DNA from: Bryum argenteum
Lineage: Eukaryota; Streptophyta; Bryopsida; Bryales; Bryaceae
NCBI GenBank assembly: GCA_037043015.1
Contig: CM073322.1
Span: forward strand, 32,917,864-32,981,863
DNA: 64,000 nucleotides
Direction of reading: 5' to 3'
Positions 1,989 to 63,569 of the stretch are shown in pieces. Each line of letters opens with the position of its first letter. The first letter of the stretch is position 1. A program made the position numbers and the translations under genes. Below the pieces are notes generated by a model, which was given only the letters and a program-made list of their open reading frames with translations, ran no database searches and had not been told where the DNA came from.

Positions 1989-2892
1989 TTCAAAGTATGG
2001 AAAACAATCCTATGTTCTAATATGAACTTTCACTTCTGTTGTAACAATCACAAGATAACTTCAAATTTTACTAGAATTTATAGGGCTCTACTCATTCATT
2101 CTTGCAAGTCAAAGATCAAATTTTTCAAGATGAAAAGTAAAAATTTCACAAAACGTTGGAGAAGAGAAGCAAATCAGCTACTGATACTCACACGCGGTCA
2201 TACCCGCCTTCATTGCCATATCCAAATCGATTGTGATTAGAGCAGTCTAGATTCAAATTATGCATAATTATTTAATAATTTCAGAAAATTTTCAAACCTC
2301 GACTTGCATCAAACATAACAACATTCGAAAGTTCAGCATCAAATTTCTGATTGCAATTACTTGACTAAAGTGCAGAGAAGTATCCCATGATAGGCTCCCG
2401 TGCTATAGAAGGTAAACAAGATCTGTGATTCGAAAGGCACCATTGTCTCCAATTACCAGCACCGTTAGTGTGGCGAGGCACCTCCAAGGTCATATTCATT
2501 GAATTGGAAGTTTTGAAAGTCTCATCTCAGTTCAAAATTGTTACAAGCACAAAAGAAGTGAAGGTAATGAAGAGCAGAGTGTTACTTTTCTTATGCCTAA
2601 AATATCATCGGTAGCAACTTCAAGACTGTTCTATTTCCAACATCACCCCTTAATCTTCTACATGTCCTTTGGACGCTCGTTATTTCAAAAGAACTCCTTG
2701 CGCATCACTCAAGAAACAGGTGGAGTTAGAAATAGGACTAAATTCTTGTTGATACAGAATAACAGACGAATCATAGGAGACATTCTAGACTACAAGTGAA
2801 GCTCCGGTTAACGGAAGCCATGGAAATGGAAGAAATGACTACTTGGAAACTGCGCAGAGTCATGAGGGGCAGTCTTTCAGTGCAACAGTTAA

Positions 2893-3254
2893 CCCTTAAA
2901 CGCCCTTGGGGTCTGAAATGGGCAGCCCAAAATTGGATCACAGCATCTTTTGGACTTGGGCATCATGAATAGTGCACTTTTTGAACTTGGGCATTGTGAA
3001 TGAACCAATCAATGATGAGCTTGCAACCTCCTACAAGGTTATGTACCACCCCAACCTACCTACCATAATCTTTTCAAAGCACAAAATCACTCATACAAAT
3101 TTTGATTTGAATTGTCAAATCTCACTTTTTCAATACATCAGAAGAAGGTGACCAGTTTGACATCAAAATATAAGTGAAAAGTTGAGTACAGTGAGAGCTA
3201 CAGGGAAGATTCTGTTGGAATCAAGCCCCTTGGGCTTACTTGGGCGTTTAAGGG
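2893..3254. mobile_element. TTAA-flanked TIR element (362 bp)
   Basis: The left end reads CCCTTAAACGCCC and the right end is its inverse, GGGCGTTTAAGGG. TTAA lies directly outside both ends (2889-2892 and 3255-3258). The inner parts of the TIRs also share a CCCTTGGG block. The interior is AT-rich and non-coding. The termini match those of the 72-bp element at 61582 and resemble those of the longer elements at 9391, 16967, 18035 and 60915, so this is one member of a dispersed family. TTAA duplication with 5'-CCC termini is the signature of piggyBac-type transposition. Confidence 0.75.
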
Positions 3255-3258
3255 TTAA

Positions 3259-6100
3259 TAAGGCCCGTCATATTAATACGGAGCATCAGCTCATTCGTGC
3301 TGCTGTCAATGTTGAACACCAAGGGAGTCCTCATTAACTTACGAGATGTGCAATCTCAAAATCAACTCGTCTCCATAGCTATTATCTTGCTGACAAACTC
3401 TTTTGATCAAATGTGGCAGAATAACCCACTCATACACGAGCTTTATTTACTGGGCAACCTCAATTCCGTTAAAATGGAATGTACCATTTTGTCACACCAA
3501 AACTTATTCAAATATACCTACACAATGGTATACTTTGTAATATCCCACTTTTTTGTAAAATCACTCATATTTGTATGATAACATTCCTATTTTGTGATAT
3601 CACCTTTAAATTCTGTAATGTCATGTGATTTCTGAACTGCCGTTCAGGAAGTTGAGGAGTACCATTTTAGCGGAACAACGCCATTTTCACAGAATTGGGA
3701 TTTGGTGCAATTTATGTCACTTGCTTCATTGAACACTGACCTTCAACACTTGGGGACAGAAAAATTCTGTCCTCCAAATAAGTTAGTGCAAGATGAGTCA
3801 GCTTCCCGCATCATCAACGTGTAGGCCTCGATCATATGTGCCACAAACGAGTGCAAGGATCTAGAGTCCTTACATGAATGACTTTGACTGAATGGAGATT
3901 AATCGCCAGAACTTATTACAGAAACATTGAAATTTATGAACGATAAACGGACTAAGTAGTTGTCAGTAACCCAGTGTAACCAGTAGGCCAAATAGTTAGT
4001 GTAAACTGAACATCGTACGTAGATTACGTTGAATCAGCATATCAAAGTCAGAACTATGTGCCTTCAGCTAGCACAGCCTTCATAACCATGTACTCCAATC
4101 TAGAGGATTGCACACGTTAATCAATGTGTCATTGATGTCTGAGATAAGATCACCTCGAAGCAAAAGTGACTTCTAACATCTGTTGCATTAGAATTGGCCT
4201 CCTGGAAAAAGCACTCGAACCTCACACCCTCTGAAACAAGGTACATGGCTAGGATTCGACAGATACAAAAATTATTGACGAGAATTGAGACCCGAGTTTT
4301 ATCACATATAATTTTCATGAGGAGAAAAGGCCCTTGTTTCTGGTGTGCTCACTTTTCCAGTGCCGAGAGCCACGGCCGTGGAGAGCGAGTGGATTGGGGT
4401 TACAAAGGTGGGGCCACGACCACAACGAGAGGCCGCCAAGCCCATTACAAAAGAAAGTTTTGAGCCTGGTTTCTAGGACTTCTCCTGAACTCAAAGCCTC
4501 ACTCTCATTACATTGGGTGATTGCGTACCCGGATAAATGACCCTTCATCTGTCACAAAATTATCCACTGTTCAAAGTTCAAAGTGATACTAGAATGTACG
4601 TGCTAAAAAGTATAAAGTAGGCTTTTTCGTTACATGTGAATTTAATACATTCGATTCACTAATCAGACCATGGCAGAAAGTTCCAATTTATGAGAATATT
4701 ACCAGTTCAATGAAATCGAGGGTTTATTTGGAAGCCACTCTGCCCTATTTTGTGGGAAAAATTGTGAGTGCATTGATTGATCTTGAAGTCAGAGAACCAC
4801 ACTTGCAAGAATTCAGATGTTTTGATTATTATCTAGAATTTCTTATCAATAGGATCCAGGCACTCTGCAATCACTCACACCCATAATTTCTCAAACAAAG
4901 CGCCCCAAAGATAGTATAAAGATGTTAAATCCTAAATTAGATATATACGATTAAATTTCCTAAAATAGGTAATATTCAGTTCATAATTATAAAAAAGAGG
5001 AAAACTTTGAAACTACATATTAAATGTACTTCTATTATTAGTAATTGGAAACTGATATTATAGGCTAAAATCTCATATTATATGATAAAATAGAGAGAGG
5101 TCACAAGTAATCTATGAAAAACCTTATCAGTTTCTCAAAATAGCTTTTCGAATAATCCGGAAACACATTCAGTAAACTATAATTTTATTCAAAAAGAAAT
5201 ATTTTTTAGTTTCTTAACTTAAATGAAATTAGTTTAACCTCAATTCCGTTAACATGGCAGTATTCCATGTGCCATTTTGCCAAATCCCTTATAAGCCATT
5301 TTGCTCCCATTCTAAATGTGCCATTTTACAAGCATATTTTTGAACTGTAGTTCAAAAGTATTTATGTCTGCAAAATGGTATGTTTATTAATATCACACAT
5401 GTACTCCCTTACATCAAGAGATTTATGTAATATTACCAAAATTTCCAAAATATTACACATTTTTTATGGTTTTTGACCTTTGGACTAGTCAAAGGGCAAG
5501 AATTCTGAACGGTCGTTCAAAAACATTTTTATTTTTGAAATGCACTATATCCTCAAATATCAGAGTATCTTTTTGTTACGAACTACCATGACATCCTCAA
5601 GTAATGATAATTGGTAAGATTGGAATTACCTTGTAGTGATAATTGGTAAGATTGAATTTGGTCATCAACTAGACTGCGGCTATGTAATTTGACTGTCAGG
5701 TGGGTGTCCTCATATGCCAAAAATGTCTCCCAACCCTCGTTCGCAACGTAATCCCGTTGGACATGTTCAACTTCTTTACGTTTGATCTTGTGATCTATAT
5801 CATGGATTCTCGCCTCTCGAGTCTGCATGTCTCAACATTTCAGTCATATGTCGTACATGCGAGCCAAGACTAATTCCCCAGATTTCTTTTCTCTACACCT
5901 GAAGTAACAAGCGGCATAAGAATGTCCCTCTATTTCGATAAACTCAAGTCCACGGTGATACCAGTGCTAGCACTCGGACTACCAAGTCTACTAACATCTC
6001 TAGTAGGTAGTTTCGATACCTACTACCAAACAATATCTTCAGAACATAGGAAAAGAAGTTCAGGTTCTCAAAGGCCACTGCAATTTGAACAACAATATTA
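3259..6100. other. Intergenic with old dispersed repeat
   Basis: No gene seen. Stretches near 3450-3700 and 5236-5530 are diverged copies of one repeat. Both begin with CCTCAATTCCGTTAA and then carry ATGG/CCATTTTG motifs and a GAAC...GTTC block near the far end. A weaker relative may lie at 10590-10760. A 37-bp tandem duplication (GATAATTGGTAAGATTG) sits at about 5610-5660. Confidence 0.4.
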
Positions 6101-6106
6101 CCTCGA

Positions 6107-62758: not shown

Positions 62759-62832
62759 ATATATATATATATATATAATAATAATAATAATAATAATAAT
62801 AATAATAATAATAATAATAATAATAATAATAA
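62759..62832. repeat. Compound microsatellite (AT)n(AAT)n
   Basis: About 9 AT units run into about 19 AAT units. Confidence 0.95.
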
Positions 62833-62859
62833 TTTTCTATCCCTAATATGTTCATAAGC

Positions 62860-63565
62860 AAGTTCCTACTCATATTTCCAAGTGATCCAAAGTGAAATTT
62901 TGACCACCTTTACAAAGGCAACCTTCAGAATTTACAAGAGCAAGATCATAGCTTTTAGTAATTTTACAAATTGTCCTCCCAGAACTTGTCAATACTTGGG
63001 ATTTAGATTTTTTTTTGTAATGTTGTGTTTTAAAAAAAAATAAAAAAAAATAAAAAAAAGAAAATTCTCAAATTCATGAAGGCACTCAATCACCATTTTC
63101 TTTCTTGAACCAAACATATCTTATGTGCATTTTTAAAATATATTGTTGGTTCCATACCTTCTAGATAATAATTTGCATGAAGGCAAAAATAAATAAAAGC
63201 AAAAAACATGATTATTTTCTAAATTTTTGCATAAATATAGTTAACTTAGTCATCTATATGGTGAAGAATATGATCATTATGTTTAGTGTAACGATCTTCA
63301 AGTCCCCGTCTACACCATGGAGAAAATGCCTCCCTAGCAATGCCCAAACAAACTCTTGCACAAACTTTGGGTGTTGTAATCTTGCAAATGTTAAATATCC
63401 ATTGGCCATTTTTTGGAACAATAAGAACAAATAGGCTCACGTTCATGATCTTATGGTTGAAAATCTAAAAATACTTTTCTTCTTTTATACACCCTCGGAA
63501 ATGCATAGAGGTCAAATATCACACTGATAGGTCTGAACCTCCAAAAACATTAGAAAGGTTAAGGG
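62860..63565. mobile_element. TTAA-flanked element, subfamily II (left end unclear)
   Basis: The right end AAGGG precedes TTAA at 63566-63569. Blocks CCAAGTGATCCAAAGTGAAA, CAAAGGCAACCTTCAGAATT, TAATCTTGCAAATGTTAAAT and GATCTTATGGTTGAAAATCT match those at 16967 and 25565 in the same order. The left terminus lies somewhere left of 62860 and could include the microsatellite. Confidence 0.5.
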
Positions 63566-63569
63566 TTAA

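Follow-up and report, generated by a model that had tools for sequence, protein, structure and literature searches.

In the piggyBac transposase of Trichoplusia ni, the aspartates D268, D346, and D447 form the catalytic triad, and seamless excision by way of a hairpin is an established property of the element. The catalytic role of the three residues is set out in the available part of PMC9499001. Here, elements of this kind are described from a 64,000-nucleotide stretch of DNA (C2:32917864-32981863, the whole of which is called the window below), part of a genome of 258.8 Mb in 25 contigs. The elements dispersed through the window are almost certainly non-autonomous derivatives, both miniature inverted-repeat transposable elements (MITEs) and longer noncoding forms, of piggyBac-superfamily DNA transposons in a moss.

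What has been recorded of this superfamily in plants? An earlier note on this DNA had called it poorly represented in land plants, and the literature supports that view in part. As far as the accessible text of each source extends, a land-plant transposon review names six inverted-repeat superfamilies with piggyBac not among them (PMC9033089), a 2025 study sorts plant MITEs into five superfamilies and one special group with neither “piggyBac” nor “TTAA” in its main text (PMC12550479), and the main text of a Physcomitrium transposon study does not contain the word piggyBac (PMC7466625). The word is also absent from a 2024 review of plant genome composition (PMC11630846). On the other side, piggyBac in plants is mentioned in passing in the portions available of PMC10140906, PMC8086355, and PMC10813416, and the repeat table for the fern Ceratopteris has one PiggyBac line, with 1,230 copies and 122 kb (PMC6890710). 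The “piggybac” of the Niphotrichum moss genome paper proved to be the word “piggybacking” and is not a transposon record. Among the matches listed by the literature search, which covered titles and the starts of abstracts, no description of a native moss piggyBac was found, nor of a native, recently active moss piggyBac population. No claim of a first plant record is made; the moss elements add a new member to a known superfamily, in a host where it was not expected.

Autonomous Copies and Their Transposases

The earlier note had stated that no copy in the window encodes a transposase, and the search result agrees: tblastn with 15 transposase frames found no transposase remnant there, the best E value being 0.18 (0.20 for the L009 frame alone). 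It had also predicted an autonomous relative elsewhere in the genome, and locus L009 contains one, a piggyBac transposase frame lying between termini of the same type (L numbers denote fetched loci of the single moss genome analyzed, among which the comparisons were made).

L009 (a locus on contig C1), locus positions 479-5669: autonomous copy of 5,191 bp with CCCTTAAACGCCC ends; TTAA-flanked ends at 475 and 5673

The open frame of L009 (ORF 1406-4099) encodes 897 amino acids and matches PF13843 (DDE_Tnp_1_7) with an E value of 1.4e-82, covering all 349 profile positions. Among solved transposases, it matches piggyBac (PDB 6x67) at 2e-29 and piggyBat (9c0f) at 7.7e-24. Residues D572, D651, and D764 of L009 align with D268, D346, and D447 of 6x67, and the three catalytic aspartates are invariant in all 11 moss proteins aligned. 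A separate feature of this copy, at about 840-1130, is a tandem repeat of short period, which several frames translate as a repeated peptide.

L009 has company. A script that looked in 21 loci for frames of more than 150 amino acids with a DN motif found 15 (L030 being the same place as L009), and the transposase frames that were read represent at least four lineages, about 31 to 42% identical to each other. PF13843 was matched by 11 of 11 frames scanned and was the only transposase class found in them; a further match, to PF20678, is weak (E = 0.0016, in one frame of the 11) and is judged to be of the low-complexity type. When the whole genome was searched with PF13843, there were 775 first-look candidates, and the best 116 were scored; every one of these was above the family cutoff, and 93 had no internal stop. 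A C-terminal cysteine-rich (zinc) domain is present in the frames of L009, L033, L038, L039, L040, L036, and L043 and partially present in L029 and L031, while the L032 frame stops before reaching it.

Could another superfamily be at work? Kolobok and Sola3 are the candidates to consider, as TTAA is duplicated there too. In the available part of PMC9033089, Sola is listed for land plants. However, Pfam, comparison with solved structures, and the alignment of the DDD triad all place the transposases found between such termini in piggyBac, and, with the proviso that no genome search was made with Kolobok or Sola models, an origin in either group is extremely improbable.

The Target Duplication

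The piggyBac-like identity proposed in the earlier note is upheld by two things together, the PF13843 transposase with its DDD triad between the same kind of termini and a target duplication of four bases. The termini themselves are short inverted repeats starting with CCY. Why does the length of the duplication matter? A Tc1/mariner-like (Stowaway-type) element would duplicate only the 2-bp TA and would have termini starting with A that happen to stand in a TTAA context. Plants commonly carry mariner MITEs. The accessible part of PMC7466625 records mariners in the moss Physcomitrium. At a perfect TTAA site, moreover, the filled and empty sequences are the same under the mariner and piggyBac models, because duplication of TTAA and duplication of TA with an outer T and A give identical outcomes, and so the empty-site test taken alone is undecided. 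In practice, empty sites, which the earlier note had proposed as the check, fit the four-base model without deciding for it. The 362-bp insertion in L016 has an empty relative in L004 with one clean TTAA (88.6% identity over 167 bases), but the results for other insertions, described below, are mixed.

Sites that depart from TTAA are more informative. In the whole genome, where the count of each motif was compared with that of the same motif written backward, TTABCCCTTAAACG occurs 119 times (control, 1) and VTAACCCTTAAACG occurs 157 times (control, 16), against 5,945 occurrences of TTAACCCTTAAACG (control, 4). Typing of 180 of the 276 variant sites gave 25 facing pairs, and in 24 of them the same variant tetramer stands on both sides, where shuffling of the labels gave a mean of 6.6 and a maximum of 18 in 100,000 trials. 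When the first 30 of these 119 TTAB sites were followed up, 23 could be matched to a partner end, which had the same variant in 14, TTAA in 9, and another variant in none. TTAT/TTAG and ATAA/CTAA variants are both duplicated whole, so the first and fourth bases are both part of the duplication. Likewise, among four near-identical copies of 5.6 to 5.7 kb, three are flanked by TTAA at both ends and the remaining one (L045) by TTAT at both ends; the matching among these four stops exactly outside CCCC on one side, and the other side ends in GGGG.

Since variant tetramers are duplicated whole, the duplication is one of four bases, with TTAA preferred, as in piggyBac, and a TA duplication is excluded. 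At TTAT and TTAG, an insertion leaves the mariner model without its terminal A, and the whole tetramer is duplicated. The transposase of the autonomous copy is of the PF13843 class, and neither its frame nor the other 10 frames scanned gave a mariner domain. The mariner reading is thus already refuted by the variant sites and keeps next to no probability. The same sites refute a PIF/Harbinger (Tourist-like) origin with a 3-bp TTA or TAA duplication, a vanishingly small prospect in that, even if TTAA contains both trinucleotides and a pipeline lacking a piggyBac class could file such elements there, the four-base variants are duplicated with both their first and fourth bases and the transposase class is PF13843.

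Elements in the Window

How far do the ends seen in the window exceed what chance would provide? Compared with 40 dinucleotide shuffles and with the reversed window, TTAA-abutting ends having no more than one mismatch to CCYYTAAA number 17, against a shuffle mean of 1.5 (maximum, 6) and a count of 6 for the reversed window. For exact TTAACCCYTAAA the count is 11, against a shuffle mean of 0.025 (maximum, 1) and 2 in the reversed window. The excess is not due to chance. Genome-wide, exact TTAACCCYTAAA ends number 23,184 (401 in the backward control), with 8,992 for TTAACCCTTAAA (control, 229) and 14,192 for TTAACCCCTAAA (control, 172), the latter two being spread evenly over both strands. The elements to which the window ends belong are the following, none with an assigned strand.

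2893..3254: 362-bp non-autonomous piggyBac element with a 13-bp terminal inverted repeat, CCCTTAAACGCCC; TTAA at 2889-2892 and 3255-3258
9391..10233: old non-autonomous element of 843 bp, CCCCTACA...TTTAGGGG, flanked by TTAA at each end
16967..17894: 928-bp non-autonomous element; TTAA at 16963-16966 and 17895-17898
17899..17930: right end of another element beside the 928-bp one, ending ...CCTTTAGGGG; TTAA at 17931-17934
18035..18890: old copy of the 9391 family, about 856 bp; flanked on its left by TTAT at 18031-18034 and on its right by TTAA at 18891-18894
20791..21633: another old 9391-family copy; TTAA beside the left end; the right end is degraded and its coordinate estimated from alignment
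25780..26002: degraded element, right part, with a weak relationship to the 928-bp family; TTAA at 26003-26006, start estimated
27934..28893: old copy of the 9391 family that includes an (AT)n array; TTAA next to its left end, CTCCTAAA; the right end is degraded and estimated
60915..61521: 607-bp non-autonomous element of a very recent burst, with TTAA on both sides
61582..61653: 72-bp miniature element, CCCTTAAACGT...ACGTTTAAGGG, with TTAA on both sides
62610..63565: degraded relative of the 928-bp family; right end adjoins TTAA at 63566-63569, left end estimated

These assignments refine what the earlier note had described. All five of its end pairs do have TTAA directly outside both ends, but the pair 16967-17930 merges two elements. 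The 928-bp element ends at 17894, because its copies stop at the equivalent position both in L010, where the copy is nested and has its two ends, and in L064, where the locus boundary truncates the copy on the left. Single ends at 18890, 20791, 26002, and 63565 adjoin TTAA with CCC/GGG termini, as reported, while the one at 27934 adjoins TTAA but starts with CTCC. Termini of the CCC(C/T)TAAA type had been attributed to every listed pair, which is wrong for 9391-10233, given its different left terminus, and the outer T and A are not conserved at every intact end, as the TTAT to the left of 18035-18890 makes plain. Finally, the note had proposed a single dispersed family. Lengths and interiors instead show several, of 362, about 850 to 950 (four degraded copies), 928, 607, and 72 bp.

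How are these families related to other copies? The 362-bp element has full-length or nearly full-length relatives in the fetched loci, about 73 to 97% identical, and its terminal 18 bases are the same as those of the autonomous copy L009. The 928-bp element is about 72% identical, over 403 to 426 bp, to one end of the autonomous copies L044 to L047. In its best aligned blocks, the element at 9391 is about 72 to 76% identical to those at 18035, 20791, and 27934, and the 72-bp element has five full-length relatives, at 83 to 97% identity, in the fetched loci. A left end was not found for the degraded element ending at 26002. The (AT)n array in the old copy at 27934 is a long one, occupying 28123-28267 of the window.

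Age and Mobility

Have these elements moved recently? Of the four long copies mentioned above, three are 99.73 to 99.84% identical to the fourth over 5.6 to 5.7 kb. For the 607-bp element, the 40 copies scored out of 6,049 first-look candidates are the best and not a random sample. All are full-length, and those besides the window copy differ by one base (26 copies) or two (13 copies), going by their bit scores. The ends of 20 copies, the first in the group of 26, were fetched, and all 20 lie between two TTAA sites, with flanks that are unrelated. For the 928-bp element, 40 of 4,114 candidates were scored; 39 span positions 1-928 and one spans 3-928, and the 39 besides the window's own are at 97 to 98% identity. 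Judged by these identities, the 928-bp family is older than the 607-bp burst, and the 9391 family, at about 72 to 76% in its best blocks, is old, so that waves of different age coexist. Judged by the long copies and the 607-bp copies, movement has been recent, and it may be continuing at present.

What would move elements that have no transposase of their own? The piggyBac explanation is that full-length copies elsewhere in the genome would supply transposases that cut and paste the window elements. These enzymes would recognize CCCTTAAACGCCC-type or CCCCTAAAGG-type ends together with subterminal sequence and would insert the elements at TTAA, or occasionally at TTAT, TTAG, or the complementary tetramers, with duplication of the four target bases. 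Because the 362-bp element shares its 18 terminal bases with L009 and the 928-bp element is about 72% identical to the L044-type end, cross-mobilization by L009- and L044-type transposases would be the simplest account of both, and it is from such shared ends that we infer which transposase moves which family. The transposase proteins are presumably made and active today, and excision would be expected to follow the hairpin mechanism known for piggyBac.

Several observations weigh against this account. Internal stops are present in 23 of the 116 scored transposase stretches, the 831-amino-acid L044-type frame has no cysteine-rich domain in that frame, and an autonomous copy specific to the 607-bp family was not found. 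Some of the related empty sites are also awkward. An element nested in the L010 transposase gene has three divergent empty paralogues, in L009, L029, and L033 (about 75%), which show a single TCAA with nothing added; for the window element at 9391, a relative at 74% that also lies in the window shows one TTAA followed by a 7-base gap; and for four more insertions the relatives, poorly aligned at 71 to 79%, are without TTAA. Among the variant ends, one of the 25 facing pairs is discordant, 9 of 23 are partnered by an end with TTAA, and no partner was found for 7 of 30. Unmatched or partnerless variant ends fit later mutation and decay, which is to be expected but is not proof.

The Host, Its Largest Contig, and Other Features of the Window

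The earlier note had placed this DNA in a plant, and the genes agree. The window codes for the plant-specific eIF4B (PF06273, E = 1.6e-41), and likewise for a receptor-like kinase, while the LEAFY DNA-binding exon of the genome scores 238 bits against PDB 4bhk, compared with at most 171 bits against the four other LFY sequences matched in PDB. Since this exon scores best against 4bhk, which we take to be the LFY of Physcomitrium, the host is identified by its sequence as a moss, a narrower placement. The 14 control genomes of the family search are uninformative for plants, as the 11 that are named are bacteria or archaea and the LEAFY family is matched in 0 of 14.

Are the elements evenly distributed? 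C1, which at 44.1 Mb is the largest contig, holds 5 of the 116 scored transposase matches, where 19.8 are expected by length, and 94 of the 5,945 TTAACCCTTAAACG ends, where about 1,013 are expected by length. Of 132 kinase matches it holds none, against 22.5 expected (126 of 1,783 kinase candidates were scored, and they are partly clustered). With kinase matches and piggyBac ends both depleted, C1 therefore looks gene-poor and piggyBac-poor, and it is perhaps a sex chromosome.

The window has other features. At 36821-48180 there is a large inverted duplication whose arms, about 3.8 kb each and made up of several blocks, are 100% identical and carry the plant eIF4B coding sequence on either side of a 3.6-kb center (40702-44316); it could be a recent palindrome, a product of gene conversion, or an assembly artifact. 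Positions 6291-6545 contain TTCC/GAAG motifs in a 10-base phase, resembling a phased heat-shock-element-like sequence or a degenerate tandem repeat. At 22499-22900 lies a sequence duplicated in tandem at a period of about 180 bases, its longer blocks being about 91% identical, and several near-identical units of a 25-base tandem repeat (CAACAATCACAGGCTTCCACTTCAG) lie at 52149-52348.

A broader interpretation, for and against which we would give roughly equal weight, is that piggyBac is a major class of DNA transposon in this moss, with at least four transposase lineages maintained side by side, recent or continuing movement in at least two groups (the 5.7-kb copies and the 607-bp burst), and strong depletion on the largest, kinase-poor, possibly sex chromosome. 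If true, land plants would have here their first well-documented case of a native piggyBac system with recent activity, and its MITEs would belong to a class that current plant pipelines do not recognize. The thousands of such ends in one moss, with very recent copies among them, mean that a whole superfamily can go unnoticed in bryophytes or be classed as mariner or Harbinger. They also come with native piggyBac transposases from a plant and short donor elements to match, which might serve seamless insertion and excision in plants, and the system offers a test of descent versus horizontal transfer of the superfamily into mosses.

Comparison with Known Systems

How do the moss elements compare with the described ones? 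With piggyBac (IFP2; PDB 6x67 and 6x68, the source of which we take to be Trichoplusia ni) they share the PF13843 core, the DDD residues at aligned positions, and the C-terminal cysteine-rich motif. IFP2 and the moss elements alike have TTAA as target and ends of about 13 bp that start with CCC. They differ in host and in size. The N-terminal region of the moss frames is far longer, with about 425 amino acids ahead of the core in L009, compared with a disordered region of about 100 amino acids in the insect enzyme (available part of PMC9499001), and full-length moss copies measure 5.2 to 5.7 kb, compared with 2.47 kb for the insect piggyBac (available part of PMC10803768). In piggyBat of Myotis lucifugus (PDB 9c0f), the core and the C-terminal zinc-binding motif align with the moss frame nearly to the end of the protein, though piggyBat is distant in sequence (E = 7.7e-24) and its host is a mammal rather than a moss.

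In a survey of animal piggyBac elements, as far as its accessible text extends, CCCTT is the most conserved terminal motif and TTAA duplications are accompanied by occasional CTAA and TTAG, as in the moss; the families in it are from animals only, whereas here a moss carries thousands of ends (PMC10813416). Among plants, the closest counterparts are the MITEs gathered from 207 genomes, four of them bryophytes, which in the available portion of that study are likewise short, abundant, and noncoding, with inverted repeats and a target duplication (PMC12550479).

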